Shown here: positions 1 to 31,441 of the stretch, piece after piece | Layout: each line of letters starts with the position of its first letter | How positions within the stretch are numbered: the first letter of the stretch is position 1 | From: an uncultured Roseovarius sp. | GTDB taxonomy: Bacteria; Pseudomonadota; Alphaproteobacteria; Rhodobacterales; Rhodobacteraceae | Length of the DNA: 64,000 nucleotides | NCBI GenBank assembly: GCA_951812895.1 | Contig: OX638333.1 | Span: 4,196,001-4,260,000, forward strand | Direction: 5' to 3' | Program-made: the position numbers and the translations under genes | Notes under the pieces: model-generated | What the model saw: the letters and a program-made list of their open reading frames with translations, nothing else | Databases searched by the model: none | Told to the model about the DNA's origin: nothing

Positions 1-913
1 CATCTACACGAATGTCCCAAAGCCGTTCGAACAGCCTGACCACATCGTCAGCAATGGCAATCTCCCGCGCGTCTTCCTGTTTCTTCAACCTGCCGAATGT
101 GATGGTGCCTTCGTCCAGATCAACCTGATCCCAAGTCAAAGGCCGCAAGCTGTCTTCATGGCGAAAGCCTGTGTACCAAGTAATCATCCAGCACAGCCTG
201 ATATGCTCGTTTTTGACCGCCTGAATTTCGTCCCAACGATCCGACCACGGCACTGACATGTCGAGTTTGCCCGTCTGGACGCGTGAGCGAATTTTGGTGT
301 TATCGAGCAGCGACGGTATCGGCAGCGCAAGGGCGCAAAGCTTGTTGATGAACCGCACGGTGGCCCCCGCGACGCAACTCGCATGATTGGCCGCGTGCGC
401 CTTCTCAAGCTGCAAAGTGTTCAGATGCTGATTGATCTCAAGAATCGGCAATTCGTTCACTGGTACGTCGGCCCAACGCGCAAGATGGTTGGAGAACGTG
501 TTGCGGTAGTCATACGCCGTACCCGGCTTCATCTGAGCCTTCCCAGAGGCGCGCGGCTGCGTGCGGTGTTCGATGTATTGTTCCAGTGCATCACCAAACG
601 TTGGGACGCCCCGTGTAGCCTGTTTTGCTTCATGCTCATCGCGTGTCTGCACATTGCCTGTGGTTATGTCATGCGCGACTTTACCAACTTGATCCTTCGC
701 CCAACGGCAGTGTGTGGCTTTGGTTGCCCATTGGGCCAATTTGACCGACCGGGTCTTCTGCGATGTAGGGTCCCACTTGTTGACGTACCACGTTTTGACG
801 CCGCCTTTCGTCACGCAGAGGCGCAATCCTTTGACCGTTGGGTCCGTGAACCATGTTGTTTTGGTGGCCGACAACTTCTTGAGCGTCGAGTCTGTGAACT
901 TGATATGGGGCAT
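1..913 (-). CDS. Tyrosine site-specific integrase, partial (third integrase of the array)
   Basis: The minus strand is open from an ATG at 913 to the left edge with no stop, about 304 codons, so the gene is cut by the window. The N-terminus (MPHIKFTDSTLKKL) has the short basic arm-binding domain of DUF4102/P4-type integrases and matches the layout of the two integrases at 1229 and 16796. A core-binding region follows, and the first catalytic arginine is seen in WYTGFRHEDSLRPL near residue 250. The HxxR and tyrosine boxes lie beyond the edge. It reads leftward, away from the tRNA-derived repeat at 1053, so it most likely belongs to another element stacked to the left. Family assignment is secure; element membership is inferred. 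Confidence 0.88.
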   Translation of the reverse strand, partial: MPHIKFTDSTLKKLSATKTTWFTDPTVKGLRLCVTKGGVKTWYVNKWDPTSQKTRSVKLAQWATKATHCRWAKDQVGKVAHDITTGNVQTRDEHEAKQATRGVPTFGDALEQYIEHRTQPRASGKAQMKPGTAYDYRNTFSNHLARWADVPVNELPILEINQHLNTLQLEKAHAANHASCVAGATVRFINKLCALALPIPSLLDNTKIRSRVQTGKLDMSVPWSDRWDEIQAVKNEHIRLCWMITWYTGFRHEDSLRPLTWDQVDLDEGTITFGRLKKQEDAREIAIADDVVRLFERLWDIRVD

Positions 914-922
914 ATCGGTGAT

Positions 923-949
923 CCTTGTAATGACCGTCTCGTTACAAGG
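923..949. promoter_or_regulatory. Inverted repeat upstream of the left integrase
   Basis: CCTTGTAA (923-930) and TTACAAGG (942-949) form a perfect 8-bp inverted repeat with an 11-nt spacer, ten bases upstream of the integrase ATG. The position fits an operator or an excisionase/integrase binding site. Function is inferred only from symmetry and position. Confidence 0.4.
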
Positions 950-1052
950 TTCACGTTACGTTCCAACACCAATCTAACCCAACCACAAATTGGTCAAGTA
1001 CCTGATTTAACTATACATAACTGACTTGATGATGTTGAAAACTAAGCGTTTT

Positions 1053-1100
1053 AATGGTGCCCCCACACGGACTCGAACCGCGGACCTACTGATTACAAAT
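1053..1100. repeat. att site, left copy of the tRNA-Thr 3' end
   Basis: These 48 bases are identical to the 3' half of the tRNA-Thr gene at 31366-31441 (from two bases beyond the CCA to the anticodon loop). They recur at 16579-16626. Beyond 1100 the match stops (acggg instead of cag). This is the classic footprint of a tyrosine integrase that recombines into a tRNA 3' end. Confidence 0.92.
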
Positions 1101-1196
1101 ACGGGAAAATTGGGTTGCTGACGGTGGCTTATGTTGCTTTTACCTAATAAATACAGACACTTCGGTTGAGCAGACCCGGTGGTGGTTGATACGAAA

Positions 1197-1216
1197 ATTG
1201 CAAAATAATTGCAAAA
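1197..1216 (+). repeat. Paired ATTGCAAAA repeat, left end of element A
   Basis: ATTGCAAAA occurs at 1197-1205 and 1208-1216, an 11-bp period, just upstream of the integrase ribosome binding site. The same pair is found near the right end of the element (16493-16513) and downstream of the primase (5719-5740). One helical turn of spacing and the location at both ends suggest integrase arm-type sites. Confidence 0.6.
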
Positions 1217-1228
1217 ATGGAGGCCTCC

Positions 1229-2425
1229 ATGGCAACCCAACGTATCAAGTTCACCGAAGGCAGTATCGACAAACTGCCGTTTTCGAAGTCCGGCACAAAC
1301 CGTTATGCTGACCAGCGCAAAGGCGTCTTCCCAAACCTGTATTTAGACGTCGGCACAAAAACCAAAACTTGGCGTCTGGTCAAATTTGCGCATGGCAAAA
1401 CAAAATCCAAAACACTTGGAAAATGGCCTGCCATGAACCTGCACTCAGCCGCGCAGGCGGCAGACACGATGTCTGAGCGGGTCGCTGATGCGACGCACGC
1501 CTTGCCTGCCCCTGTTGTTACCCAAGCCAAGGAGATCAGCCTTAGACAGGCATTTCTCAGGCACACAACCGAACGTGTTGACCCACGCACCAAAGAGAAA
1601 ACGGCCAACACCGTCTACGACTACCTGTCCACCCTGCAAAATCATGCCGGTAAGGACGGTGAATGGCTTGATGTACCAATCGACCAGATCACGCGCGCGA
1701 TGATCAATGCCCAGATGAAAGCTATGAAGGACCGCCCTTCTCAGGCGACTAAGCTGCTTCGCATCATTTCAGCCATCTATCGCAATGAAATGTTGATCCG
1801 GGACGACATTATCGACGACCCGACTTTTCGGGTCCGGGCTTATCCGTCTAAGACAAAGGAACTTCTGTTCGATCCGTCTGGGCGTTGGCCCGCCCTTGAC
1901 GCCATCATGCAAGTTGAAGACGTGACAGCCCGCTCGGCCTGGCTGGTTATGCTGTTCACAGGCATCAGATCATCCAATGTTCGCAGCATCGAATGGGCCG
2001 ATCTCGACCTCGAACAGAATATGCTCAACATTCCACGCCTTAAGAATGGAACGAGACGCACCTTCCCGTTGTCCGAGGCCGCAACCGCCGCGTTTAAACG
2101 CGTTCCCCGCATTCATGATAAACTGGTGTTTGCCTCCAAGACCAAAGCTGGCGTTCCAATTGCTCACCAACACGCTTTGGGGACACCAAAGGTATTGCGC
2201 CAACATGATACCCGCCACTTGTTCACATCTGCCGGGTCAATGGCCGGGATTGATAGATCAAAGGTCAAATACTTGCGCGGTGACATTGTGCTGGGTGATG
2301 GGGCCGACGTTGGCTACATGCATGGCATTGCAGCCCATGAAGATGTCGAGAAAATCGGACAGCTTGTGGCCCAGAAATCATCAACACCTTATTCTGACCT
2401 TGTCAAAGCCATCACGAACCACTAA
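1229..2425 (+). CDS. int: Tyrosine site-specific integrase of element A
   Basis: This 398-aa protein would integrate and excise element A at the tRNA-Thr 3' end. It has an N-terminal arm-binding domain (first ~90 residues), a core-binding domain, and a catalytic domain. Active-site residues are visible: Arg in TGIRSSNV near 244, Lys in RLKNGTRR, HxxR in QHDTRH near 325, and Tyr in GYMHG near 361. The start at 1229 is chosen because GGAGG at 1219-1223 sits 5 nt upstream and because the related integrases begin at the same place in the alignment. An upstream in-frame ATG at 1217 would add four residues but lies in the ribosome binding site. The gene lies 130 bp inside the att copy. Confidence 0.95.
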   Translation: MATQRIKFTEGSIDKLPFSKSGTNRYADQRKGVFPNLYLDVGTKTKTWRLVKFAHGKTKSKTLGKWPAMNLHSAAQAADTMSERVADATHALPAPVVTQAKEISLRQAFLRHTTERVDPRTKEKTANTVYDYLSTLQNHAGKDGEWLDVPIDQITRAMINAQMKAMKDRPSQATKLLRIISAIYRNEMLIRDDIIDDPTFRVRAYPSKTKELLFDPSGRWPALDAIMQVEDVTARSAWLVMLFTGIRSSNVRSIEWADLDLEQNMLNIPRLKNGTRRTFPLSEAATAAFKRVPRIHDKLVFASKTKAGVPIAHQHALGTPKVLRQHDTRHLFTSAGSMAGIDRSKVKYLRGDIVLGDGADVGYMHGIAAHEDVEKIGQLVAQKSSTPYSDLVKAITNH

Positions 2426-2447
2426 CTCTCCTGTTGTTATTCGCCTC

Positions 2448-2475
2448 CATCTCACACGCGTCCTTCCGTGAGATG
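2448..2475. other. Hairpin after the integrase gene
   Basis: CATCTCAC (2448-2455) pairs with GTGAGATG (2468-2475) around a 12-nt loop, 20 bases after the integrase stop. There is no following T-run, so it is a weak terminator candidate or an operator for the next gene. Confidence 0.3.
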
Positions 2476-2587
2476 AGGCCGCGGTGCAGAATCAAGATTA
2501 ACGCCCACGACGGGCCCTAAGCAAAATGCGATCTTGAACGCGAAGGCATAAGCACCCGGTCATCTGGCTACCCAAAAGGGTGACCTT

Positions 2588-2821
2588 ATGACTAATACAC
2601 TTATTGCCGAATTGCGCTCGGCCATTGAAGCGCATCAAACTCCAGAAATCATGACGCCAGCACAGGCCGCAGAGTTTCTCGGTGTGTCCGATTACTATTT
2701 GCTCGATTTGCGAAAGCGAAAATCTGGGCCAGCATATTCACAGCCAGCATCAAAAATCGTGCGCTACATGCGCGATGATTTGATCGCTTGGATGAATGAA
2801 CATCGTGTAATCGCAGGATAA
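2588..2821 (+). CDS. AlpA/MerR-type helix-turn-helix protein (excisionase-like)
   Basis: This 77-aa protein carries one winged-helix domain of the HTH_17/AlpA kind: MTPAQAAEFLGVS, then a recognition segment and a KIVRYMRDDLIAWM tail. In P4-like satellites AlpA proteins activate or direct excision and turn on the element after helper infection. It sits between integrase and primase, as does its counterpart at 18197 in element B. It lacks the N-terminal extension of that counterpart. A role as excisionase or activator is inferred from family and position. Confidence 0.8.
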   Translation: MTNTLIAELRSAIEAHQTPEIMTPAQAAEFLGVSDYYLLDLRKRKSGPAYSQPASKIVRYMRDDLIAWMNEHRVIAG

Positions 2822-2823
2822 CC

Positions 2824-2848
2824 GGAGCGAGGGTCGAGTCCCCGCTCC
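2824..2848 (+). other. GC-rich hairpin just after the AlpA-like gene
   Basis: GGAGCG (2824-2829) and CGCTCC (2843-2848) pair, with GGG/CCC inside. Element B has a stronger hairpin at the equivalent point (18531-18556). There is no T-run. It may attenuate readthrough into the primase gene or stabilise the short mRNA. Confidence 0.4.
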
Positions 2849-2963
2849 GAGTTAGGTGTTGCACGAAGTGTTTGGAATAACTGCCTTATAGCAGTTTTCA
2901 TGCTCCGCCAAAACCATGGAATGAGGTGATGGACCCGCGCTCTCTTGAGAAAGAGAGACCATT

Positions 2964-5336
2964 ATGGCTTACGAAAAATTGTTCGCTGGCAATCAAGAAC
3001 GCTACTTAACTTTCAACCCATCATCGCTCAACGCTAGGGATGAAGACGGCAAGTTGGTACCCGACTATAAAACCATCAAACGCGAGGTATCAGAGAAAGT
3101 CTGGACTCAACATCTGAATGGTGAAATTTCACTTGGCTTGTCGCCGCTGCGAGATGGCAAAGTAAAGTGGGGTGCCGTCGATATTGACGTCTACCCATTC
3201 CTTGAAACCGATGACGAACTGGAAGCGTTCATGAGGAAGTGGGCAGACCCATGCCTTGTTTCACGTTCCAAATCTGGTGGCATTCATATCATCGCTTTTA
3301 CCCGTGATTGGGTGGATGCCGATGTTATGCGCAAATACTTGGCGGCGAAGCGTGATGCCGTTCTGGAACCTAAAATCCTATCCCATGCCGACGAAATTTT
3401 CCCAAAACAGAAGGCTGGCAACGGATCACAGATGAACTTGCCACAATGTGGTTCAGAGCGACCGGTGTTGGCGTGGAAAGCTGGCTCGACAATCCAATAC
3501 TGCGGGCGAACCAAGTATGGTGACGTGATCGCAGCAGATTGGGGGGAAATCGCGGAGCAATGCTATGTGCCTGAATCTCACATGGCTTCCGTGATCGTTT
3601 CGGCGCTGACAAAAGCCCCGAAACGCTCGTCAAAAGCACGCGAGAAAAAGAAGTATGCTGGTGGTTTCAAACGCCCTACATCCGGCAAAGCGATGGAGGG
3701 GCGCAACAGCTTCCTCTTCCATTGCGGTGCGTCTGCGCGAGCGCGCGGAGCGGATGACGATGAGATCAGCGAAATCATTCATGGCATCAATGACGAGTTC
3801 AACAACCCAGACAGCGAATTTGGCTCCAAAGGCCCAATCACTGACAGCAAACGTCTGTCCACGGTGATTGAACAGGTGCAAAAACTGCCGCAAGGCGAAG
3901 TTGCTGATCTTGCCTATGATGTTGTTGAACGGATGAATGCTGAATGGGCTTTGATGTTCGTCGATGGATCGTTCGAAGTGTTGAACACCAGAACTGACAA
4001 GCCCTATTCAATGGCGGCATTCCAACTCAAACTTCGTCCATACAAACTGCGTGGTAGAGAGGTCACGGCGTATTGGCTCGATGATCCAGATCGGCGTGAA
4101 TATGATGGCTACGTGATCGAAGCGCCGGATTACGATGGTGAAGGCTACAACATCTTTCAAGGCTGGAAAGTTGAACCTACAAACGGCGATGCCACGCTGT
4201 GGGAGACGTATGTCAAAGACATCCTTTGCTCTGGCGACACTGATCTTGCGCATTGGGTAATGTCGTTCCTAGCCGACGCTGTGCAGCGCCCGTGGTCAAA
4301 ACACCCCGGCACAGCCATCGCGCTACGCGGCGGTCAAGGCGGCGGTAAGTCATTCCTTGGCAAAGCTATGCGTGCGATCCTGCCAAAAGCTCACATCGCG
4401 GAGTTTGCCCAGTCGGACCGACTGCTTGGACAATTCAACCGGTCAATGTTTGGCGCAACATTCGTGCTGGCGGAAGAATCCTTTTTTGCTGGTTCGCGCA
4501 AAATGGCAGCAGCGGCCAAGGTGTTGGTGGAGTCGGATGAATGGACTTACGAGCAAAAATACCTTGCATCGTTCTCAGCCAAGAACGTGCACCGCGTGAT
4601 CGCCACAACCAATGAAGACCAGGCTGTTCATGTCGATTTTGATGATCGCCGTTGGACCGTGATTGAAGTGCCAACCATGTTTGACGATACCAATCGCTTG
4701 GAAGGCCGCAAATGGTGGGATCCCTATTATGCCCTGCTGCGCGACGATCCGGGTGCTGTGTTGCGATATTTGTTGGAATATGAAGTCGATCAAGATTTGA
4801 TTGCGTCGCCGTGGGTGACAGCAGCCAAAGCATCCGACAAGATTGCCTCTGATCCTGTCGTTGCACTAATGGATGATATTGCCCGCACTGGCTCATGCCC
4901 TGACGATCTGCGCGGCGATGGGCGCATCTCAACGGCTACGCTGGCGCGTGAAGCTTGGGCGCGGGGTGCATCTCGCTATGACAACCCACGGCGCTTTTCC
5001 AACCAACTGCGCGACAAGTTTGGCGGCATGACAGCGGCAAACTGCATCAACATTGAAAAGGTTGAATATCGCCAGACCCCAGATGGCATCCTGACGCCTT
5101 ACGTTATCAAGCGCACTGATCGCGCTGGCGTCCAGCTTCCGGCTTTGGCGGAGTTTCGGCGCATGGTGTCCAAAGTCACGGGTGAGACATACCCCGATGA
5201 TGGCGATTGGTTGGAGCATCGCATTGCCGATCCCGAAACAGTCAACGACATTGACCCCAACGGCGGCGATGTTGATGGCGTTTTGCAGTACGTGAAAGAT
5301 AACGGTGCCATTGTGAAGGAAGACATACCCTTCTGA
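2964..5336 (+). CDS. Replication protein: AEP-type primase fused to SF3-like helicase (DUF5906 type)
   Basis: This 790-aa protein probably primes and unwinds DNA for autonomous replication of the element. The N-terminal part has archaeo-eukaryotic primase signatures: acidic GAVDIDVY near 70 and SKSGGIHI near 102. The C-terminal half is a P-loop helicase of the phage/plasmid DUF5906 group, with GGQGGGKS near 456, an acidic FVLAEES segment, and ATTNEDQAVHVDFDDRRW near 550. A purine-rich stretch precedes the ATG. The homologue in element B (18660-21011) aligns end to end, down to the common DIPF C-terminus. It resembles P4 alpha in role though not in detail. Helicase assignment is firm, primase assignment good. 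Confidence 0.88.
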   Translation: MAYEKLFAGNQERYLTFNPSSLNARDEDGKLVPDYKTIKREVSEKVWTQHLNGEISLGLSPLRDGKVKWGAVDIDVYPFLETDDELEAFMRKWADPCLVSRSKSGGIHIIAFTRDWVDADVMRKYLAAKRDAVLEPKILSHADEIFPKQKAGNGSQMNLPQCGSERPVLAWKAGSTIQYCGRTKYGDVIAADWGEIAEQCYVPESHMASVIVSALTKAPKRSSKAREKKKYAGGFKRPTSGKAMEGRNSFLFHCGASARARGADDDEISEIIHGINDEFNNPDSEFGSKGPITDSKRLSTVIEQVQKLPQGEVADLAYDVVERMNAEWALMFVDGSFEVLNTRTDKPYSMAAFQLKLRPYKLRGREVTAYWLDDPDRREYDGYVIEAPDYDGEGYNIFQGWKVEPTNGDATLWETYVKDILCSGDTDLAHWVMSFLADAVQRPWSKHPGTAIALRGGQGGGKSFLGKAMRAILPKAHIAEFAQSDRLLGQFNRSMFGATFVLAEESFFAGSRKMAAAAKVLVESDEWTYEQKYLASFSAKNVHRVIATTNEDQAVHVDFDDRRWTVIEVPTMFDDTNRLEGRKWWDPYYALLRDDPGAVLRYLLEYEVDQDLIASPWVTAAKASDKIASDPVVALMDDIARTGSCPDDLRGDGRISTATLAREAWARGASRYDNPRRFSNQLRDKFGGMTAANCINIEKVEYRQTPDGILTPYVIKRTDRAGVQLPALAEFRRMVSKVTGETYPDDGDWLEHRIADPETVNDIDPNGGDVDGVLQYVKDNGAIVKEDIPF

Positions 5337-5367
5337 TCCCATCGTGGCGATCTTTTCGACTGACAAT

Positions 5368-5404
5368 TCCCCACGCTGGCTGGTCTTGCGTGGGGATATT
5401 TTTT
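5368..5404 (+). terminator. Rho-independent terminator after the primase-helicase gene
   Basis: TCCCCACGC (5368-5376) pairs perfectly with GCGTGGGGA (5388-5396) around an 11-nt loop, followed by TATTTTTT. It lies 31 bp after the stop codon. Confidence 0.8.
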
Positions 5405-5819
5405 GATTGCCAAACATGTTGTTAAGCGCATGTTCCCATGCAATAGACGCTGCTTTTGTGAACTCCGAGACAGATGTCAGCGGTGACGCTTTCAAGGCTC
5501 GATTTTACAGACCAAGTTTTCATATGGCTTTTTGATTTTTAGTGTGTGTAGCGTGGCAAGCATGGATTTGCGTTTCTTGCCAAAGCGTTGGCGCAGCCAC
5601 ACTGGCAGTGCTTCCATGGTCAATGTGGTTGCCTCCATGGGGACACAAACCGAAGGCACCCGACCTTCCTCAGAATTCTCCGCCTAACTGCATCGTGGCC
5701 GGGCAAATTTGGCCCAAAATTGCAAAGCCTGAATTGCAAACCGTGGATTTATCTAACGTTTCCAAGCGAAACAAACTGATTGGGAATTAGTTAGTGGGAC
5801 GATTTAAGTTCTGTGGTCA
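5405..5819. other. Gene-free regulatory/origin-like gap of element A with internal paired repeat
   Basis: No convincing gene is seen here; the ORFs present have no recognisable composition and no counterpart in element B. The stretch holds ATTGCAAA at 5719-5726 and 5733-5740 (the third pair of the element) and TTCCATGG-type words at about 5612 and 5632 that recall the CTTCCGTGG repeats of element B at the same place. It may be the replication origin or the switch between replication and packaging genes. Confidence 0.4.
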
Positions 5820-7400
5820 CTAAGGCAGCTTAGCGTTAATGACCGCAATAAGGTCTGAAAATCTCTCTGGCTTCGCCATTGCGACCAAGCGACAGACATC
5901 TTGCCGGACACGCTCCGGATCCAACTCAACGGATTCCCCAAGTTCGAAAAACTCGTCATGTTTATCAGCAAGCAGTGCTTCTCTCAGCAGGCCCAAAACT
6001 TGATCGTCGCTTTCCAGCCCCCACATGGTAGCCGTTTTGCTCGGATCACCGAGAAGATCATTCTCTAGAAAACCGACTGCTTCGGTAATCAACCATTTCT
6101 CTGGCCAAGTATCCCCAGGCAAAAAGTACACCCGCTCTCCCGCCCAAGATTTAATGGCGTCTTTCTCTTCCTGAGTGCTTGCTTCGGTCCCGTTCACCAC
6201 GCTCTTCAACCCGCCAGCCAATTCACCGGATTGATCCCCATCTAGAACGCACATGCAATTGTTGAGCCCCTCCATTGAACGGCTCGCCAATTGCCTAAGA
6301 ACTGCGCTGTGCGAGCCAATTGGCTTTATTCGACACCGCTTTCTGGTGTCGAGTGGAAGTACTTGCTGGAGGATTGATCCTGCATTCTCATCTTCCACGA
6401 AAATGTCGAGTTCCTCGGCTTCGGCTTTGCCCATTTTGCCGCAAGCAAAATCTGCCGATATACCTTTCGTTAGCACTGTAGAAACCCCATTGGTTTCTAT
6501 GAAGAACCTTGCCTCAGGGGGCAAACTTTTCAAAACTGCATAGGAATGCGTCGAACATATAATTTGGCATTTCAGCTCTTTGCACAATTTTTTTAACTCT
6601 TCGATCATTCTCACTTGGGCTTTCTCATGCAACCCAAGTTCGATTTCGTCGATAACGATCAATGTTCCTGCCCCAGCACGGAATAAGGCCGTCAATATCT
6701 CAAAAACTGCACTCTCACCCGCCCCCATGTTAAAACCTGAGTATGAGATTCCGGCAGCATTCACTATCGGAAGGGAATACTTACTATGTTCATAGCTGTC
6801 AAAATCTGCGTAAGCTTTGCCAATTACTTTTCCAGCAATCTTGGCAATCTTCTGTCGCGTTGCCTCTGGCAAATTTCCGGGTTTGAACCTAGACTTATAA
6901 GACTTGGAAACACTTCTTTCAAAGTGCGGCACAACTCGCTGAACGCCGAAGTAAATTACGTTCCGGCTTACCCTAGAGTCATAGTCGTTCCAGCGCCCGC
7001 CTTTTCCTTTGTATCTTGATTGATACCGAAGGCCCGCCCCAACCCTCTTCCAGTTATCATATCGGATGCCGTATCGTATTTTGACACCATCAACGGGAGT
7101 TTCATCAGAGGACTGAACAAAAAAATCACTGAAGGTATAGTACGGTTTTGACCTAAGCGGGGGTTTGAACCCCTTGCGGTCATTGTGAAACGCACATGCA
7201 GCAAGTGCCAACATCGTAGACTTCCCTGAGCCATTTGAGCCAGCGAATGCAGATATTGGATAGTCGAACTCAGCCTTGAATTGACCAAGACCCCGCACAT
7301 TCCCCTTGGACAGTTCAATTGATGCCAGCGTGGCGCGCGAATTGTCTTTTCCAAACCAAGAAAAGTTATTTCGATCAATGTTTGACTTGCTATAGCTCAT
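5820..7400 (-). CDS. OLD-like AAA/ABC ATPase with TOPRIM-like C-terminal domain (probable defence cargo)
   Basis: This 526-aa protein has an ABC-type ATPase split as in RecF/OLD proteins: Walker A GSNGSGKST near 55, signature NMGAGES near 225, Walker B IVIDEIE near 248, and a switch His in STHSYAVL near 285. The C-terminal third has TOPRIM-like acidic motifs, FVEDENA near 330 and LDGDQSG near 388. This is the architecture of OLD-family nucleases, several of which act in anti-phage defence, alone or with a partner. No partner gene is adjacent. It is transcribed against the flanking element genes and is absent from element B at this place, so it is probably cargo. Nuclease activity and defence role are inferred. 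Confidence 0.78.
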   Translation of the reverse strand: MSYSKSNIDRNNFSWFGKDNSRATLASIELSKGNVRGLGQFKAEFDYPISAFAGSNGSGKSTMLALAACAFHNDRKGFKPPLRSKPYYTFSDFFVQSSDETPVDGVKIRYGIRYDNWKRVGAGLRYQSRYKGKGGRWNDYDSRVSRNVIYFGVQRVVPHFERSVSKSYKSRFKPGNLPEATRQKIAKIAGKVIGKAYADFDSYEHSKYSLPIVNAAGISYSGFNMGAGESAVFEILTALFRAGAGTLIVIDEIELGLHEKAQVRMIEELKKLCKELKCQIICSTHSYAVLKSLPPEARFFIETNGVSTVLTKGISADFACGKMGKAEAEELDIFVEDENAGSILQQVLPLDTRKRCRIKPIGSHSAVLRQLASRSMEGLNNCMCVLDGDQSGELAGGLKSVVNGTEASTQEEKDAIKSWAGERVYFLPGDTWPEKWLITEAVGFLENDLLGDPSKTATMWGLESDDQVLGLLREALLADKHDEFFELGESVELDPERVRQDVCRLVAMAKPERFSDLIAVINAKLP

Positions 7401-7603
7401 GCAAATTCCGAATTTTCAGCAATAGGTTTTCGAATACGCCATACGCCGACGAGCGTGATTGGTGCATGCTTTAGCCGTATTCTATATCTTGCGCCACCTT
7501 CTGAGCCAACAACTTTATCTAGAACCTAACTTAATGACTTCGCCACCTCATTCTAGCCACATCCGCCCCGTTTCAAGGTGATACGCATCATTTGTCGAAC
7601 CGC

Positions 7604-7656
7604 TGTGATGAAACACGCGCCCAAGGCCGGTTCGACTGGCTTGGCCCTTGGGCGCG
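7604..7656 (+). promoter_or_regulatory. Leader of the packaging operon: conserved TGTGATGAAACACG plus hairpin
   Basis: The 14-mer TGTGATGAAACACG (7604-7617) is identical to 21617-21630 in element B, at the same position upstream of the first packaging-operon gene. It runs into an inverted repeat, CGCGCCCAAGG (7616-7626) with CCTTGGGCGCG (7646-7656). Element B also has a long inverted repeat here but of different sequence. A binding site for an activator, or a cos-type site, would fit. Confidence 0.5.
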
Positions 7657-24201: not shown

Positions 24202-24428
24202 AGTCGCCCCATTCAGAATTCCTCGGCTGGGATCACTATGCTCGCGACCATGCAAGGCGTCTTGAGGCGGCAAATTTAGTCGGGCATCCCGAATGGGTTG
24301 AATTGCCCGCGTCCCGACGCGAGGCAAAAGGCGAAGGCAAATACTTCACAGGCAAGCCATGCAAGAATGGGCACATCTCCCCGCGATATTCGATGGGTTG
24401 TTGCCGCGCCTGTCAGATGGGGCAGTAA
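24198..24428 (+). CDS. Zinc-knuckle protein between TerS and TerL
   Basis: This 76-aa protein overlaps the TerS-like stop by ATGA. CKNGHISPRYSMGCCRAC is the CxxGH...CxxC knuckle also present at 10056-10298. No HNH motif follows. It ends 1 bp before the terminase ATPase start. Unknown role in packaging. Confidence 0.65.
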   Translation: MKSPHSEFLGWDHYARDHARRLEAANLVGHPEWVELPASRREAKGEGKYFTGKPCKNGHISPRYSMGCCRACQMGQ

Positions 24429-24429
24429 C

Positions 24430-25209
24430 ATGCCTTTTGACGCCCTCATACCGTGGTGCGCAGAACTTGAACGCTCGCTCGATCCCGCCGCGCGTCTGCG
24501 CCACTGGATCGGCCATGAGCCTGATCCTTGGCAGATCGACGCTTTCACGACGGAGGCGACGGAAGTCGCTTTGCGCGTTGGTCGTCAGGCGGGCAAGACC
24601 AGTGTGCTCGCCGCGCGGGCAGTCGAAGAACTGCACATCCCAGAATCGCTGACCATCTGCGTTGCGCCAGCGGAGCGTCAGGCGAAGATCATCGCGCGAG
24701 AAATCGGACGGCAGTTGAAGCGCACGGAATTGGTAATCACGCGCTCGACGCTGACGGAACTCGAAATGTCAAACGGTGCCCGCGTCGTCGCGCTGCCGTC
24801 CACTTCGGACACCATTCGCGGTTATCCATCGGTGTCGTGCCTGATTATCGACGAGTGCGCGTTCTTGCAGGGCGAAGGCGGCGGCGAAGACCTGATTGCG
24901 GGCGTGCTGCCGATGCTCACATCGCAGGGGCAGGTCTATTTTAGCTCAACTCCTGCGGGCAAAAACAACTACTTCGCGCGACTGTTCCTCGACGCAAAGC
25001 CGGGTGACGGTGTTCACCGCATTGTCGTCAAAGGCACGGACATCCCGCGACTGAAAGACAAAGTGGAGCGGATGCGTCGCACGCTGTCCGCGACCAAATT
25101 CCGCCAAGAGATCGAATGCGAACTGCTCTCAGACGGCACCAGCTATTTCGACCTCTCAATCATCGAAAACGCAACGAGCACGGAGGGCGCGATATGTCCC
25201 AAGATGTGA
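24430..25209 (+). CDS. terL-N: Large terminase, ATPase half (split TerL, N-terminal subunit)
   Basis: This 259-aa motor domain has DPWQIDAF, Walker A RQAGKT near 57, Walker B IIDECAFL near 140, and coupling motif SSTPAGKNN near 176. It stops at the linker SYFDLSIIENATS as in element A. The nuclease gene begins in another frame 16 bp before its stop. It begins two bases after the zinc-knuckle stop codon. Confidence 0.88.
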   Translation: MPFDALIPWCAELERSLDPAARLRHWIGHEPDPWQIDAFTTEATEVALRVGRQAGKTSVLAARAVEELHIPESLTICVAPAERQAKIIAREIGRQLKRTELVITRSTLTELEMSNGARVVALPSTSDTIRGYPSVSCLIIDECAFLQGEGGGEDLIAGVLPMLTSQGQVYFSSTPAGKNNYFARLFLDAKPGDGVHRIVVKGTDIPRLKDKVERMRRTLSATKFRQEIECELLSDGTSYFDLSIIENATSTEGAICPKM

Positions 25210-25931
25210 ACTACGAAACCCAACTTAACCTCGTTTATCTGCCTGACGGGCGGGTAGTGAACGAAACTAACCAAGACCCGGCCATCGAGCGCGTCACAGG
25301 GCACCAAAACTATTGGGTGGCCGCTGATCTCGGACAGGCAAATGACTACACTGCCGTTGTCGTGATCAAAGACGAGGCGCTGCCCATCGTTGACGGCTCG
25401 AAAGTGATTGTCGGTCCGCGTCACCGATCAATCGTCTATGCCGACCGCTTCCGTGGCGTGTCTTATGTCGATGTCTGCGATCACCTGATCCGCCTGCGCA
25501 ACGCGCCGCCGTTCGGTGGCAAGTCGGAATTGGTCATTGATGGAACGAGCCTTGGGCGCGTTGTGTCGGACATGCTATGGGATCAATCAGTTGATCACCA
25601 CGCCGTGCAAATGACAGGCGGCCAATCTTGGCGCAAGGAAGGCTCGCGGTATGTGAACGCGGGCAAAACGTTCATGATCGAAAACCTGTCCGTGCTGTTC
25701 GCCTCCGACGACCTCAAGTTTGCCCACGACCTGCCGCTTCGTGACGAGATCGAATCCGACCTTGCCTCCTTCTCATTGCAAACGACAGCGGCAGGCAATC
25801 AGATCATTACCCAATCGCGATCAGCAGGCGGTCACGGGGATTTGGGGATCGCGGTCATCGTCGGCGCGTTCGCTTCGCAGTATCTGCGCCCACAGATGAT
25901 CACGACTCACACGCTGCGCGGGTGGTATTGA
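25194..25931 (+). CDS. terL-C: Large terminase, nuclease half (split TerL, C-terminal subunit)
   Basis: This 245-aa RNase H-fold nuclease has acidic motifs AADLGQANDYT near 44, VIDGTSLGR near 118 and GHGDLGIA near 221. GGAGG lies seven bases before ATG 25194, giving it an independent start within the ATPase gene. The overlap length (16 bp) is the same as in element A, although the sequence differs. Confidence 0.88.
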   Translation: MSQDVNYETQLNLVYLPDGRVVNETNQDPAIERVTGHQNYWVAADLGQANDYTAVVVIKDEALPIVDGSKVIVGPRHRSIVYADRFRGVSYVDVCDHLIRLRNAPPFGGKSELVIDGTSLGRVVSDMLWDQSVDHHAVQMTGGQSWRKEGSRYVNAGKTFMIENLSVLFASDDLKFAHDLPLRDEIESDLASFSLQTTAAGNQIITQSRSAGGHGDLGIAVIVGAFASQYLRPQMITTHTLRGWY

Positions 25932-25990
25932 CGTCTCTCGTCGCGCTCTTGGCAAACGCGTGAGTCGTAACACCATGAACTCGACGAGCG

Positions 25991-26028
25991 ACCGCGAAAA
26001 ATCGCGCAGCGCTGCGGTATTGCGCGGT
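25991..26028. terminator. Possible terminator after the terminase operon
   Basis: ACCGCG (25991-25996) can pair with CGCGGT (26023-26028), followed by TTT, with the palindrome GCAGCGCTGC inside. It lies between two converging genes. The stem is short, so support is modest. Confidence 0.35.
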
Positions 26029-26093
26029 TTTGGGCATAACCTTGGGGCAGAGACTATTACCGTCTTCGCTGACGCGCTTTGTAGGCACCTTGT

Positions 26094-26573
26094 TTAATCG
26101 CCTCGTTCGGCCAGCAGTTGGTCTAGCTTCACTCCGGCCTCCATTCGGTTGGCATGGCGCTTGCGAGCCTTTTCGTAGGCTTTGCGCAAGCCCCCCGGCG
26201 CGCTGTTGGGCATTCCGTTTTCGTCTAGGTATTCGCGAGAGGTGCGAGAAATGCTGATCTTCTTACCGTCCTGAACGTCCTTCATCATCCGGTCGGTGAA
26301 CCAATCAAAAATGTGATCAAGGTCGTAACTCCCACCGGGGCGCTCAACGGGTTCAAAATAGAAACCTAGCTCATGCGCGAGCGTCGCTTGATCGCCGTTG
26401 CCCATGTCGTAATCGGCCACAACGTTTGCCGATTTCTTCACGTAGGATTTCACCCAAGCGGGCAAGTCAGTTTCTTCGACGTGGGAGGCCAACATTCGCC
26501 AAGCTTTCTTCGCGTCGCCGGGTTCCCGTTCAGCGGCATTCGCGATTTCATTCATGTTGGAGTTTTCAGCCAT
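26094..26573 (-). CDS. Unknown cargo protein
   Basis: This 159-aa protein is mostly helical and charged, with PAWVKSYVKKSANVV, SYDLDHIFDWFTDRMM and a basic C-terminal helix (YEKARKRHANRMEAG). No recognised family and no membrane segment. It converges on the terminase operon and diverges from the small-gene operon at 26666. As the first cargo gene of element B it may be a helper-interference or immunity factor, but nothing in the sequence shows this. Confidence 0.6.
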   Translation of the reverse strand: MAENSNMNEIANAAEREPGDAKKAWRMLASHVEETDLPAWVKSYVKKSANVVADYDMGNGDQATLAHELGFYFEPVERPGGSYDLDHIFDWFTDRMMKDVQDGKKISISRTSREYLDENGMPNSAPGGLRKAYEKARKRHANRMEAGVKLDQLLAERGD

Positions 26574-26665
26574 GTTCGCGGCTCCAGCTTTTCATATTCG
26601 TTTGTGTCCAAATCAGCGTGCACCGCACATTCGCGGGCAGCAACGTCCAAGAAAGGACATCTAAG

Positions 26666-26851
26666 ATGAAAATACTTAATCCTACAGCACTCAATCGCGC
26701 TGATCTACAACGTCTCGGGAAATATCTTGCGGTTAACGGCGTTCAAGAAATCACGCTCACTCGCAACGACAGTTTGCAGACAATCAAGCGGCTGGCTGGC
26801 GGCTGGCGCGTCGAAGAAGTGAATAGCACTCAGCAAGAGGTAGCGGCATGA
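26666..26851 (+). CDS. Small unknown cargo protein 1
   Basis: This 61-aa protein opens a run of three tiny overlapping genes. AAAGGA lies 9 bp before the ATG. The sequence (LQRLGKYLAVNGVQEITLTRN, then GGWRVEEV) suggests a small alpha/beta domain. Family unknown. Confidence 0.55.
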   Translation: MKILNPTALNRADLQRLGKYLAVNGVQEITLTRNDSLQTIKRLAGGWRVEEVNSTQQEVAA

Positions 26852-27126
26852 ATGTGAAACCTGAAAACCTCACTCGTGCGCTTGCGATTCTGAGAACCGA
26901 GCCTGACGAGTTTGATGTAATGCTCTATGCTGGGATCATTTACGTGGCAGGGCAAAAGCTCACTCTTGGCGAACCAGATGACGCCGAAGTTCTTTCGGTT
27001 CTGATGGCGGACAAAGAGTTCGGTTTCGCTGTAAGCGGCTTTGAAAACGCTTCCAACACATTGCGCAAGATGCAAATGGTCTGGTGTGATGCAGCCACAG
27101 CGATGAAGAAGGAGGCTGCGGCATGA
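26848..27126 (+). CDS. Small unknown cargo protein 2
   Basis: This 92-aa protein overlaps the previous stop by ATGA. It shows a helical, acidic sequence with DDAEVLSVLMADKEFGFAV and a C-terminal helix (ATAMKKEAA). Family unknown. Confidence 0.55.
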   Translation: MNVKPENLTRALAILRTEPDEFDVMLYAGIIYVAGQKLTLGEPDDAEVLSVLMADKEFGFAVSGFENASNTLRKMQMVWCDAATAMKKEAAA

Positions 27127-27260
27127 GTCCGAACGTGCGCGAACGGCTGCGCATCATCAGCCGTGGCTTAGACCGCAGCAGCTACGTTCGCTTCACACAC
27201 CGTAAACGCACTTATATCTTCATGGAAGGTCGATGGTGGACAGCACCAAACAATTTATGA
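27123..27260 (+). CDS. Very small basic unknown protein 3
   Basis: This 45-aa protein overlaps the previous stop by ATGA. It is strongly basic (NVRERLRIISRGLDRSS, then RFTHRKRTYIFMEGRWW). The tight overlap in a three-gene run supports translation. Its end overlaps a hairpin formed by GTCGATGGTG (27229) and CACCATCGAC (27262). Confidence 0.45.
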   Translation: MSPNVRERLRIISRGLDRSSYVRFTHRKRTYIFMEGRWWTAPNNL

Positions 27261-27298
27261 GCACCATCGACGGTCCATCGACGGTATTGAAACAACAA

Positions 27299-27321
27299 CG
27301 GCTCGCCAATCGGCGAGCCGT
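27299..27321 (+). terminator. Terminator of the small-gene operon
   Basis: ACGGCTCGCC (27299-27308) and GGCGAGCCGT (27312-27321) form a perfect 10-bp stem with a 3-nt loop, 39 bp after the last small gene. The following T-run is weak (ATTCGTTT). Confidence 0.6.
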
Positions 27322-27459
27322 ATTCGTTTGCGTCTGCCGTCGCGCGACACGTTCAACAAAACGTCGGCAAACACCCCCGAAAAATCGCGCGCTAACGGGC
27401 GTCTCGGTATTTTGGTTACAATGTGCGCCTGCAAACCGCACACTGCCTTAGACGCGCGC

Positions 27460-27948
27460 TTACATTGTGCTGTTCGATGCGACTTGTTGAAGTCTTGCCG
27501 TCACATCCACAACACCGCCGGCGTTCCAAATATCATCGCGCAGCATAAAACGGTGACTATTGGTGTGTTTGGTAAATTTGGAACGATCTCGGACGACTGC
27601 AGACGGGATCAACGCCGCGCGCGAAACGACAAAGGCAGCATCAAAAAGGACACCTGCCAAAACGTCAAACCCGTCCATGTCTCGAATGGCCGACAACTGC
27701 CTCGATGTGTTAAGCTGGTGCAGCCGCCTTCCTTTGATTTGATAGCGGATGCCTTCGGCGTCTGTGGCGTCGAACCCTTTCACGGAATTCGCAGCCAGAT
27801 CCCATCCGAATGTTTGGCAGAACAACCACTCGGCGTAATCGCCTGTCGGGTTGTTTGCAGTTCGTAGGATTTCGCGATCCCGCAATTCGTTTAGCACGGC
27901 GGTGTGCGTTTCAAGCAATTCTGTAACGGTGTATTTCTTCAAATCCAT
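27460..27948 (-). CDS. PD-(D/E)XK-like nuclease-fold protein (DUF6998-like)
   Basis: This 162-aa protein has an N-terminal helix pair, then GDYAEWLFCQTFGWDLAANS, KGFDATDAEGIRYQIKGRRL. The order E...GfDA...YQIKGR fits a restriction-endonuclease-like core with the E, D and QxK residues in place. The central part LSAIRDMDGFDVLAGVLFD supplies the next strands. It could be a stand-alone restriction-like nuclease. It reads toward the small-gene operon. Fold assignment is by eye; family naming is tentative. Confidence 0.55.
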   Translation of the reverse strand: MDLKKYTVTELLETHTAVLNELRDREILRTANNPTGDYAEWLFCQTFGWDLAANSVKGFDATDAEGIRYQIKGRRLHQLNTSRQLSAIRDMDGFDVLAGVLFDAAFVVSRAALIPSAVVRDRSKFTKHTNSHRFMLRDDIWNAGGVVDVTARLQQVASNSTM

Positions 27949-28392
27949 ATCCTGATCCTAATTGTCACTAATCAGTTTGTCATTCTTCCTTGCGATTCCA
28001 TGAGGCGTTTTCCGCCACATTGATGGCGCAACGATCAACTCGACAACTGCAATCGCAAGCGCGACGACGTGTAGGCAGCTTTAGGCGGGAGGGGCGGACA
28101 GCGATAAGCGCGTGCCTTCGCCCTGCACGACCTCATTCGGCACAGTTCAGCGCCGCCTGATGGCTACGCCCGTCAATCAGCTGGTTGGAAATCATGTTTT
28201 GCCCTCAAGGCATCGGTTGATGGAGGCATGTTTCATAAGTGCCGAGTAGGTGATCCGGTCAACTGGAAATTGCATTCGACTCCTGCGAGCCCGCGCAGTA
28301 GGCTGATTAGAATTTCAACTTATGCAAAATTCGCTCTCACTGATTGGTGTATATCAGATAGCTGCGAACCGCTAACTATTCGGAATGATTGA
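27949..28392. other. Gene-free gap between two cargo nucleases
   Basis: No gene, repeat or strong hairpin is seen in these 444 bp. It should hold divergent promoters for 27948 (-) and 28393 (+). Confidence 0.4.
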
Positions 28393-29532
28393 ATGAAGCG
28401 TTTTTTATTACAAGCTGTAAACGACGAAGATCACCTCGCTCCCGCGCGCGAAGTATTTGGCCTTGGCGAATTGCAGACCGCAACGATAAGCACCGCGTTC
28501 ATGACGGCTTCGGGCCTGTCGCTTTTGCAAAGTGTATTGGAACCAATCGCAGATCGAGCGCGCATTTTTGTAGGTATTCGAAATGGAATTACTACCGTCC
28601 AATCCATACAAAAGGCGCTGGAAATCGGTTGCGAGACATACATGGTGGATACCGGTAGTCGGCAGCGCATTTTCCACCCAAAGATGTACTATTCCCGCTC
28701 GGCCACCCGCGCTAAACTTCTGCTGGGCAGCGCTAACCTGACGATGGGTGGCTTGCGCACTAACATCGAAGCCAGTGTTTTGCAGGAGTTTGACCCAACC
28801 GAGGACGCGGCGTTCCTTGATGACCTGGAGGGCAAACTTGACGCAATGATCATTGATTACCCAAATCACGTGATCCGCTTGGTTGATGCCGCCCAACTGG
28901 CCGATCTACAACGCGCAGGCCGACTGTTAGACGAGCGCAAGGGGCGACCACCCGAACCTGCTGGAAGCTCATCTGACCGCAATCTAGACACCGTGCCAAA
29001 AATGGCATTGCATACTAACCCTTTGAAGGTGGCGAGGCCTATCGCACCTCCGGTGCCACCGGTTGCGCCTGCAGCACCTGTGGCTCGCGAACGCCTTGCG
29101 CTGGTGTGGGAAAGCAATGGTCTGACCCGTCGCCACTTGAACATTCCCACTGGCGCGAACACCAGCCCCACTGGCTCTATGCTTCTAGGTGTTGGCGCAA
29201 TGGAAGGTATCGACCAACGACACTATTTCCGAGACGAAGTGTTTGCGGCGTTGGACTGGGAACCTGACGCTGCTCCCGCACGGGCCCACATTGAACGGGC
29301 AGAGGCGCAGATTCGACTAATCGTGAAAGACGTGGATTACGGAGTCCACACTATGCACCTCTCGCACAATACGCGGACTGACACAGCTTCCTACCGGCAG
29401 CGCAACAGCATGACCGGCTTACACTGGGGCGATGCCAAACCGCTCGTTGCTAAAGAGGATTTGCTGGATCGCGTGCTGAAACTGTTCCGCGAAAACGAAG
29501 ATCCTTCGCGCTTCACTTTGGAAATCGACTAA
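28393..29532 (+). CDS. PLD-family nuclease, probable restriction endonuclease
   Basis: This 379-aa protein has a phospholipase-D-type active site: FHPKMYYS near 97 supplies HxK and LLGSANLTMGG near 115 supplies the GSxN element. The C-terminal region (after a proline-rich linker PPVPPVAPAAP near 220) has a separate fold with AEAQIRLIVKD. Single-HKD PLD nucleases dimerise and include type II restriction enzymes of the NgoFVII/BfiI kind. It converges with an adenine methyltransferase with a 4-bp overlap at the 3' ends, supporting a restriction-modification pair. Confidence 0.75.
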   Translation: MKRFLLQAVNDEDHLAPAREVFGLGELQTATISTAFMTASGLSLLQSVLEPIADRARIFVGIRNGITTVQSIQKALEIGCETYMVDTGSRQRIFHPKMYYSRSATRAKLLLGSANLTMGGLRTNIEASVLQEFDPTEDAAFLDDLEGKLDAMIIDYPNHVIRLVDAAQLADLQRAGRLLDERKGRPPEPAGSSSDRNLDTVPKMALHTNPLKVARPIAPPVPPVAPAAPVARERLALVWESNGLTRRHLNIPTGANTSPTGSMLLGVGAMEGIDQRHYFRDEVFAALDWEPDAAPARAHIERAEAQIRLIVKDVDYGVHTMHLSHNTRTDTASYRQRNSMTGLHWGDAKPLVAKEDLLDRVLKLFRENEDPSRFTLEID

Positions 29533-31118
29533 GAAGGAATTCGGTGGCGGCGGTCGCGTAGAGTAGCCCAAGCGGCAAGCAGGTCCATCTGTTCAGCCTT
29601 AGTCAGAGCACCAAGCACATCTTCTGATTGCACTTCCAGCGTGTCCGCCACAGAATCTTCGCGCACCATACGGTCCAATTTCTCAACATTTGGGGAGATG
29701 CCTTCGGGTGCAGGTAACAGCAGCTTCTCAATTTCGCTGGGCACCAGCTCTAAAACACCACCGCCATAGTGACGCCCTTCCAGTTCCGCGCTGAGGGCGG
29801 TCAGGCTGTTGTAGAAGCCATAAACCAAAGCATCCGCTGTACCGCGAAGGGCACGAATGCGATAGGCGGTATCGGTTGTGTAGGCCCCGACACGATTATG
29901 AATTAGGCGGGGCGTGTTGTGGCTGCGCTTGAGCATTCCAACCTCGGTAGCGTGCACCGAAGGCACCGTGTACCACGGCTTTCGGATACGGCATTTATAT
30001 CGCTCGTGGAGCTTTTCGTGTTCGCCCGAAGCGATGTAAGCGCGACCTTTGGCACTATCCATAACCGAACTGTCGAGCCACAGGAAGTTCGTAGGCTTGC
30101 CTGTAGCCGCATTGCGGGCGTGCTGCGCGTTATCATAGATCACTCCGGGGCAATGGTCGCTGCGCCCAAACATTGGATGCGCCCACTTTTCCAGTCCGTT
30201 CTGTCGCACAACGTCGTCTGTGACGAGGAAAAACTTGTTGGCACCCGTGACTATGCCCACGTCCACTTTAGCGGCATCGTCGAAGCGGCAGAATCTGGAA
30301 TCTTCTTCTAAGGCTTCGAGGGTGGATAGAGTCGCGGTGGGCACCAGTGCGCGTGTCCACTTGCCTTGAACAGTCTTTCCGTTGATCGCTCGGGGTGTGT
30401 TGAAAACTGCTTCTGGGTCTTCGCGTAGGAAGTCGCGACCGGCTACGCGGTGAATGCCTAGCCCTTCGCCGTGGACATCAGGCGCAGCCTTCTTCTCGGC
30501 CATCAGCAGGACCGCGCCCTGCAAGGTGCCTTCGAACCAGATTTCTTGAGGGTCTACGATCACTATGCGGCGACATTGCTGTCCGAGATAGGTTCGCAAG
30601 GATTGCGCGTGCATAACGTGCACGATCTCGGACGGAACCACCATCGCTAGCCGCCCACCGGGGCGCAGCAGGTCCATCGACGCGAGAATGAAAGGAACCC
30701 ATGCATTAGTGTGTTTCGTGAATTTGCAGCCGAGACGCGCAAACACACGTTCAGCGTTGGCTTGGAAGTCCGCCGGGAGATACTGGTACTTGACAAACGG
30801 TGGGTTGCCGATGACCGCATCGAACTGGCCGCGTTCCGCTGCCAGCGCCCAACTTAAGAAATCTCGATTGTGAACGGTACAATCCGGCAGACCACGCGCC
30901 GAAGCCTTTGCAGCTTCTTCTGGCGATAGTTCGAATGCCGTAACTGTTGCGTCAGATCCCTCAAGCGTTGGGAAAAATGCGCCATCTCCGCAGCTTGGTT
31001 CAAGCACGCGGGTTCCGGCGCTCGGAGCTATCCATCGGGTTAAGAAATTAGCGAGGTCGGCAGGCGTGTAGTATCCACCGCGTAGCTTCTGTTCTGATTC
31101 TAACGCGATGAAGTTCAT
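29529..31118 (-). CDS. N6-adenine DNA methyltransferase (TaqI/Eco57I-like)
   Basis: This 529-aa protein methylates adenine in a specific DNA site, most likely to protect it from the convergent PLD nuclease. It has GGYYTPADLANFL near 15, the SAM-binding motif VLEPSCGDGAFF near 40, and catalytic NPPFVKYQYLP near 105. The C-terminal half (from residue ~270, FRRCFDD-type to YGGGVLELVPSEIEKLLLP) looks like a target recognition domain. It is the rightmost gene of element B, 250 bp from the tRNA. Confidence 0.88.
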   Translation of the reverse strand: MNFIALESEQKLRGGYYTPADLANFLTRWIAPSAGTRVLEPSCGDGAFFPTLEGSDATVTAFELSPEEAAKASARGLPDCTVHNRDFLSWALAAERGQFDAVIGNPPFVKYQYLPADFQANAERVFARLGCKFTKHTNAWVPFILASMDLLRPGGRLAMVVPSEIVHVMHAQSLRTYLGQQCRRIVIVDPQEIWFEGTLQGAVLLMAEKKAAPDVHGEGLGIHRVAGRDFLREDPEAVFNTPRAINGKTVQGKWTRALVPTATLSTLEALEEDSRFCRFDDAAKVDVGIVTGANKFFLVTDDVVRQNGLEKWAHPMFGRSDHCPGVIYDNAQHARNAATGKPTNFLWLDSSVMDSAKGRAYIASGEHEKLHERYKCRIRKPWYTVPSVHATEVGMLKRSHNTPRLIHNRVGAYTTDTAYRIRALRGTADALVYGFYNSLTALSAELEGRHYGGGVLELVPSEIEKLLLPAPEGISPNVEKLDRMVREDSVADTLEVQSEDVLGALTKAEQMDLLAAWATLRDRRHRIPS

Positions 31119-31286
31119 TATACCCGCCTCTGTTTCGTCTTCTTATTACGTTCCCAAGTTTGTTAGTGGTGAACTATCTGCGTTTTAGCGCAAACCAACC
31201 CAATTCACCAACCATATTTAGTGGCCATTCCTTTGAACGATGCGGAATATCGCTAAACATGGTACCATTATTCGATTCTTCGGTGT

Positions 31287-31306
31287 GTTTGAAAAACGTT
31301 TGAAAA
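31287..31306 (+). repeat. Paired GTTTGAAAA repeat, right end of element B
   Basis: GTTTGAAAA at 31287-31295 and 31298-31306, an 11-bp period, 60 bp before the tRNA gene. Same orientation as the left-end pair at 16755-16777. Confidence 0.6.
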
Positions 31307-31365
31307 TACACACTAATGCGAACGGCTGAGCGCTCACTTTGTCATTTAATATCAATCGGTTGAAA

Positions 31366-31441
31366 TGGTGCCCCCACACGGACTCGAACCGCGGACCTAC
31401 TGATTACAAATCAGTTGCTCTACCAGCTGAGCTATAGGGGC
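31366..31441 (-). tRNA. tRNA-Thr (anticodon TGT), integration target
   Basis: The 76-nt gene includes an encoded CCA. It folds normally: 7-bp acceptor (GCCCCTA with TGGGGGC), D arm GCTC/GAGC, anticodon stem ACTGA/TCAGT with loop TTTGTAA, and T arm with TTCGAGT. Its 3' part is duplicated at 1053 and 16578. Integration restores a full gene, so it remains functional. Confidence 0.96.

Follow-up and report, generated by a model that had tools for sequence, protein, structure and literature searches.

We analyzed a 64,000-nucleotide stretch of DNA from an uncultured Roseovarius sp. (GenBank assembly GCA_951812895.1, contig OX638333.1), hereafter the window, which spans bases 4196001-4260000 of a 4.54-Mb single-contig genome; negative coordinates lie to its left. 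The window holds two integrative elements in tandem, E1 and E2, and the edge of a third, E3. We consider it likely that E1-E3 and their relatives are satellites of Nanhaivirus-like siphophages, the group of Dinoroseobacter phage vB_DshS-R5C (R5C); the satellites would rely on the helper for coat and tail and contribute their own scaffold, their own DNA-packaging motor and sometimes a portal. This reading is drawn from gene content.

Three elements in a tRNA-Thr gene

A 48-bp core of the tRNA-Thr gene occurs in identical copies at 1053, 16579 and 31364, and a fourth copy with 1 mismatch lies outside the window at -13576. The four cores delimit E3 (-13576..1053, 14.6 kb, inverted, mostly outside the window), E1 (1053..16579, 15.5 kb) and E2 (16579..31364, 14.8 kb). 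E1 and E2 share the gene order int, alpA, primase, gA, gB, gC, gD, gE, gF, TerL-ATPase (TLN) and TerL-nuclease (TLC). A preliminary description of this DNA had reported two elements of about 15 kb with identical gene order, tandem integration in tRNA-Thr with shared 48-bp cores, and a third integrase at the left edge. These points were borne out, and the third integrase belongs to the inverted E3. Because the proteins shared by E1 and E2 are only about 26-74% identical, the pair appears to reflect separate arrivals and not a recent duplication; their cargo also differs.

A fourth family member was found in the same genome near base 667,000 (about 667,000-677,000; L007 and L111, L and H numbers being our own labels). 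It belongs to the portal-bearing branch described below and carries integrase, alpA, prim, gA, portal, gB, gC, gE and both TerL genes. It lies near a tRNA-Gly gene; a search for its att repeat found none.

Two kinds of repeats were noticed near the integrase genes and element ends. An inverted repeat, CGTC-TCAC-GACG, lies at window positions 18054-18065 between int and alpA of E2, and 11 of the 19 elements of the portal-less branch (group I, see below) have an 11-mer of it in that position, making it an operator candidate. In several group I elements, TTGCAAAA-type repeats occur at both ends, about 115-187 bp inside attL and in the last ~120 bp before attR; these are likely integrase arm sites.

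gC is a homolog of the Nanhaivirus-type head scaffold

The gene gC lies upstream of the TerS-like gE and is present in both branches of the family. Its product gave no significant match in Pfam or PHROGs. Comparison with lytic Nanhaivirus-like phages such as R5C showed homology to their head scaffolding protein, whose last ~33 residues are retained in gC. Across 21 satellites, the C-terminal segment of the R5C scaffold (L086:25387-26154) could be aligned with every gC, the alignment being poor for L045 alone. At 118-136 aa against 255 aa, group II gC has roughly half the length of the phage scaffold and ends at about the same point; group I gC extends about 70 aa past that point, an extension absent from Nanhaivirus scaffolds.

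When profiles of gC made from satellites only (30 group I and 12 group II sequences) were run against 4,260 open reading frames (ORFs), all matches were to phage scaffolds, 18 in number, with best E-values, scaled to a million sequences, of 7.5e-10 for group I and 1.8e-7 for group II. The 18 include R5C itself (L089) and near-copies (L091/L092/L101, L097/L098 and L103/L104), and L107 is counted twice. Against 9,203 ORFs of phage contigs, the profiles gave 28 matches, all of them scaffolds. The gC domain was found in 28/28 phage contigs with a coat close to that of R5C (E <= 8e-88), a partly selected set in which 20 are either reference phages or were retrieved through resemblance to scaffold or gC; it was found in 0/3 contigs with a scaffold and a distant coat (about 1e-33; two are likely near-copies). 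Among contigs fetched by portal alone, the domain was present in 8/8 with an R5C-type coat and in 0/3 with a distant coat and a scaffold. Two distant coat matches came without a scaffold match, and 11 contigs had a scaffold match with neither a coat match nor the gC domain, some being cut at contig ends. A search of 50,697 phage records with the C-terminal 45 aa of the R5C scaffold found matches in R5C and R26L only. From these sequences, the gC domain appears to follow the R5C-type coat lineage.

A study of the Staphylococcus aureus pathogenicity island SaPI1 (PMC5644958) describes a C-terminal coat-binding motif common to SaPI1 CpmB and the scaffold of phage 80alpha, and a redirection of capsid size by CpmB through competition for coat. 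In the same way, gC is a small protein that has, by homology, the coat-binding C-terminus of the putative helper's scaffold. By this analogy, gC should bind the Nanhaivirus-type coat and redirect assembly.

Separately, a gB-like ORF (9.8e-13) was seen at L121:14548-14793 (minus strand) inside a Nanhaivirus-like viral contig, a hint that gB too may be phage-derived.

The elements carry a split large terminase

TLN matched PHROG terminase families (5.5e-28), and its Walker A motif, catalytic Glu and TP coupling motif are retained across 16 aligned copies. TLC matched a PHROG of unknown function (1.3e-33) and has four Asp invariant across 17 aligned copies. The best PDB matches of its predicted model (pLDDT 85.0) were TerL nuclease domains (5tge, E 2.7e-8), so that TLC is a TerL nuclease by predicted fold. 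ATPase and nuclease genes are separate in all 42 copies where both were readable, with an overlap of 1-17 nt, mostly 16, and no fused TerL was seen among TLN and TLC gene calls, the longest being at most 285 aa. A TerL kept as two genes so consistently is unusual material for motor biochemistry.

In profile comparisons, the satellite ATPase was close to the TerLs of Thermus phage Riverbug (3e-55) and Meiothermus phage MMP17 (4e-52), and the R5C TerL matched only weakly (0.006); the satellite motor thus differs in origin from that of the putative helper. The product of gE has an N-terminal helix-turn-helix (HTH) and long helices, its gene sits directly before the TerL genes, and it is homologous to the product of the gene just before TerL in Riverbug (1.4e-13) and MMP17 (1.1e-9). 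On position, HTH domain and this homology we tentatively call it TerS-like.

One of two branches carries a portal

Group I (E1, E2, L030 and most of L049-L078) is portal-less: a search of 9,936 ORFs, covering E1/E2, L030 and L048-L083, found no portal. In group II, which comprises E3, the fourth element and ten further loci, a DUF4055 portal gene lies between the integrase-proximal genes and gB. The three group II portals tested matched phrog_145 (3.5e-57 to 8.2e-113), and one (L034) is 51% identical to the R5C portal and 46-48% to those of two other Nanhaivirus members. In the TLN tree, whose root is left open by long branches, 30 group I rows fall together (100/99). The portal-less L048, an IMG/VR contig, falls outside them on the other side of the tree, and portal presence is therefore not strictly clade-bound. 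A further portal-bearing element was observed at L149:2808-12054 (CP049029.1), in the 391-kb Rhodobacteraceae plasmid pSC52_1.

No coat, tail or lysis gene was recognized

The E1 and E2 genes gave no coat, portal, tail or lysis match in Pfam, PHROGs or PADLOC. Each gene was compared with one or more of these, except that the integrase, alpA, primase, gE, TLN and TLC of E2 were covered as homologs of screened E1 genes. E1 and E2 thus have their own integrase and replication gene without coat or tail genes, a general feature of satellites. When 17 virion, lysis and packaging proteins of R5C were compared with 57 satellite sources (including L005, L007 and L030-L083), BLAST relatives (E 0.01) were found only for the scaffold and the portal, the latter in 12/57; the R5C coat, head morphogenesis protein, connectors, tail, endolysin and TerL had none in these sources. 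A major capsid protein of their own, a feature of capsid-forming phage-inducible chromosomal islands (cf-PICIs), was found neither in the E1/E2 screen nor, as an R5C-type coat, in the 57 sources. Of 131 non-core genes (at least 80 aa) in 23 bounded elements, 129 were scanned against PHROGs; the families listed (the best 25 of 71 and 25 of 36) were mostly methyltransferases, helicases, regulators and unknowns, with no head or tail family among them.

These results modify the preliminary description. Its statement that E1 and E2 have no capsid, portal, tail or lysis gene stands insofar as none was recognized, and it overlooked the capsid-assembly gene gC. Its formula that the elements supply motor and nuclease and borrow the shell is consequently incomplete, since a homolog of the helper-type scaffold is encoded in both branches. 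Of the full terminase that it proposed, the ATPase and nuclease of TerL are firm and TerS is assigned weakly. It had also held that capsid or portal genes belonging to the elements would speak against it; a portal does belong to the wider family, E3 included, and not to E1 or E2.

The family recurs across Rhodobacterales with a narrow size

A search for the same gene set in Rhodobacterales, which the preliminary description had proposed, showed that the core recurs across the order, with 42 family copies having adjacent TerL genes. The TLC profile matched 24/292 genomes of the order and 17/112 genera, near full length in 15 and only partially in 9. The group I alignment, scanned over 84,980 species genomes, yielded 35 loci, most with Rhodobacterales titles; the exceptions were Anderseniella and Parvularcula metagenome-assembled genomes (MAGs) and a few unplaced MAGs. 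The family is also carried by a laboratory strain, Rhodobacter capsulatus DSM 1710 (locus L061). In IMG/VR, scans recovered just one contig of the family, twice over, and this contig may come from an integrated element.

A tRNA-repeat search covered 55 loci, 51 of which have a family gene, and flagged 24 as flanked, the shortest repeat being 17 nt (L039). L031, which shares its record with L051, and the 5-kb fragment L041 were excluded, and L054, whose repeat was unflagged due to a neighbouring integrase, was added together with E1-E3. The resulting 26 elements with both ends measure 13.1-16.0 kb and lie at tRNA-Asn, Thr, Lys, Ala or Arg; the 19 portal-less ones average 14.55 +/- 0.63 kb and the 7 with a portal 15.16 +/- 0.45 kb. 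Fragmentary loci also exist (e.g. L041, L044, L046, L060, L071, L073 and L079-L081). Median dN/dS over pairs with at least 60% identity was 0.071 for TLN (43 pairs), 0.096 for TLC (46), 0.134 for gE (46), 0.180 for gC (22) and 0.085 for int.

Genes and cores of E1 and E2 are given in Table 1. E3 cargo includes two type II methyltransferases (L005:6642-9628), and among the PHROG families listed, methyltransferases are also the leading cargo in other elements. With near-full-length TLC in 15/292 sampled genomes of a marine order, and with restriction, methylation and defence-like cargo, the family may shape phage resistance and gene flow.

Table 1. Features of the array in window coordinates; E1 and E2 genes were called by a simple script.
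Feature	Position	Strand	Evidence
E3 integrase	1..913 within window (whole ORF -322..913)	-	clusters with E1/E2 integrases
att core common to E3 and E1 (3' part of tRNA-Thr, 48 bp)	1053..1100		
E1 tyrosine integrase	1217..2425	+	Pfam Phage_integrase 2.4e-15
E1 AlpA-like HTH regulator/excisionase	2588..2821	+	HTH_17 4.9e-9; phrog_66 2.3e-7
E1 primase-helicase (AEP/DUF5906)	2964..5336	+	
E1 cargo AAA ATPase, HEC-04-like defence gene	5820..7400	-	PADLOC, 1.3e-48
E1 gA, conserved small protein	7578..7943	+	
E1 gB, conserved	8034..8381	+	
E1 gC, putative scaffold mimic, plus ~70 aa extension	8477..9106	+	homology to Nanhaivirus head scaffolding protein C-terminus
E1 gD, present in group I loci	9096..9482	+	
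E1 gE, TerS-like, HTH and long helices	9484..10059	+	
E1 gF, small, Cys/His (zinc-like) motif read by eye	10056..10298	+	phrog_1081 1.7e-6
E1 TerL ATPase (TLN), Walker A, catalytic Glu, TP coupling motif	10288..11082	+	phrog_7579 5.5e-28
E1 predicted TerL nuclease (TLC), separate gene, 16-nt overlap with TLN	11067..11783	+	5tge E 2.7e-8
E1 cargo IS110-type transposase	12471..13490	+	
E1 cargo HipA-like kinase	14124..14921	-	
att core between E1 and E2	16579..16626		
E2 integrase	16796..18013	+	homolog of E1 integrase
E2 AlpA-like regulator	18197..18544	+	
E2 primase-helicase	18660..21011	+	
E2 gA	21662..21928	+	
E2 gB	22007..22495	+	
E2 gC, putative scaffold mimic	22613..23236	+	
E2 gD	23223..23612	+	
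E2 gE, TerS-like	23614..24201	+	
E2 TerL ATPase	24430..25209	+	
E2 predicted TerL nuclease	25194..25931	+	
E2 cargo type II methyl-directed restriction enzyme	27460..27948	-	2.2e-61
E2 cargo PLD-like protein	28393..29532	+	3.5e-5, just under Pfam cut-off
E2 cargo Eco57I-like methyltransferase	29529..31118	-	
att core inside intact tRNA-Thr	31364..31411		
tRNA-Thr(TGT), integration target	31366..31441	-	

Plasmids outside the order were noticed as well. Salinibacter ruber plasmids pSR11 (L150, NC_014026.1, 11.2 kb) and pSR14 (L148, NZ_CP030359.1, 14.9 kb) encode a TerL split in the same manner (in pSR11, PHROG 7579 at 4e-96 and 27743 at 1e-118) as well as a P4-type or primase-helicase gene, and pSR11 also encodes a long protein with weak tape-measure matches. 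They are possibly plasmid-borne analogues in another phylum. Streptomyces and Rhodococcus plasmids H73-H75 (16.3, 16.3 and 15.9 kb) carry a terminase gene.

Proposed mechanism and alternative explanations

R5C is lytic, and its description reports no integrase or repressor found (PMC5454422). An R5C-type coat was not found in the Roseovarius genome itself and occurs in only 2/292 genomes of the order (once at 35% identity over nearly the whole length, once as a fragment), so that the helper would usually come from outside. By their sequence, the elements reside in tRNA genes between att repeats and encode their own integrase and AlpA-like regulator, to which E1 and E2 add a primase-helicase. 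We propose that helper infection may trigger excision and replication. gC would then bind the helper coat via the C-terminal domain it has in common with the helper scaffold, and assembly would be redirected toward satellite procapsids, perhaps smaller ones. In the portal branch a helper-type satellite portal would be built into the vertex, and the portal-less E1 and E2 would use the helper portal. The element's own TerS and split TerL may package the satellite DNA, to which each element contributes about 14.5-15 kb, and helper tails and lysis would complete and release the particles. The narrow element size fits small heads that hold a single element, or helper-sized heads that hold about five, phage genomes of 72-80 kb equalling about five element lengths.

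A stronger version is that a lytic phage has its DNA-loading vertex replaced in full (a scaffold mimic, a portal in one branch, and an unrelated TerS and split TerL), with only coat and tail taken; we give this an even chance of being right. If so, helper escape via the coat would be hard, since the site is one on which the helper's own scaffold depends, and helper packaging signals would not be contested by the satellite motor.

Several observations weigh against the satellite proposal. Its weakest step is the docking of an unrelated motor on the helper portal, as E1 and E2 would need. The TerS assignment of gE is weak, structure searches having given no clear support, and no cos or pac site was found. 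The gC homology is thin in places: L045 is the poor alignment mentioned above, the E1 gC segment alone had as the best of 5 phage matches the R26L scaffold at E 0.1, and the R5C scaffold reached only 12/57 satellite sources by BLAST. The E3 portal is in two pieces in one frame with a stop codon between, the satellite portals are not one clade in the portal tree, where some have long branches, and IMG/VR held only the one contig.

Some of this bears on other explanations. Scaffold and portal similarity might reflect common ancestry only, with another helper or several; the scattered, partly long-branched portals and the extra domain of group I gC agree with that. We hold it to be quite unlikely, as the occurrence of the coat-side domain goes with the R5C-type coat lineage and the end of the R5C scaffold is so restricted among phage records. 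Alternatively, scaffold and terminase might serve interference, poisoning helper assembly, while the elements spread in some different way or as concatemers that the helper packages in its ordinary manner. The defence-like cargo would suit this, as would the five-fold ratio of genome lengths, and PICMIs, satellites of Vibrionaceae, are described as packaging concatemers without identifiable packaging genes (PMC10803314). Interference is nonetheless unlikely, because a full TerS-TerL set exceeds its needs and the catalytic residues of both TerL halves, with low dN/dS, fit enzymatic use.

Decayed prophages that have lost their coat, tail and lysis genes would explain why terminase, portal and scaffold are phage genes, why some loci are fragments, why the TLC match is only partial in 9/24 genomes and why the E3 portal is interrupted. 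Decay would hardly leave the same core order, the same missing genes, narrow sizes and att ends in many genera, nor low dN/dS; moreover, an R5C-type coat or tail gene occurred in 0/57 sources, no head or tail PHROG was among the families listed for the 129 genes of bounded elements, and no complete-prophage relative was found in the loci compared. We regard decay as very improbable. Because the core recurs across Rhodobacterales under low dN/dS in att-bounded units of 13.1-16.0 kb, we do not take the elements for decayed prophages; the earlier view of satellite-like integrative elements is retained. One phage of the likely helper group, R5C, is in culture on Dinoroseobacter shibae, which makes the proposed hijack testable.

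Comparison with known satellites

P4 has AlpA and a large primase, as the present elements do. It also has its own capsid size-determining scaffold, Sid; unlike Sid, gC resembles the internal scaffold of the helper. P4 is packaged by the P2 terminase (PMC10690885), whereas the present elements have their own. SaPI1-type PICIs are chromosomal islands of similar size, with SaPIs given as around 14 kb (PMC6893505), and CpmB has the C-terminal motif of the helper scaffold (PMC5644958); the present elements add TerL and in some cases a portal, belong to another host clade and would use a lytic-phage helper. PICMIs share the int, alpA and prim core, a marine setting and virulent helper phages, but have no identifiable packaging or capsid-remodelling genes (PMC10803314), unlike the terminase-bearing elements here. 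The cf-PICIs likewise encode TerS and TerL (here TerL is firm and TerS weak), but they also have coat, protease, portal and connectors (PMC10690885), of which coat and connector were not found here.

VEIMEs and tycheposons are marine elements proposed as phage satellites (PMC11389934). In titles and abstracts we found no satellite with terminase and scaffold but without coat, and no link of R5C or Nanhaivirus to satellites; the gene contents of VEIMEs and tycheposons lay outside the comparison, so a prior description is possible. Among the systems compared, judged by their genes, the combination of motor and scaffold without coat was not found. Known satellites bring TerS, a scaffold or a whole capsid, and the present set stands between these, with motor and scaffold, with or without a portal, and a coat left to the helper.

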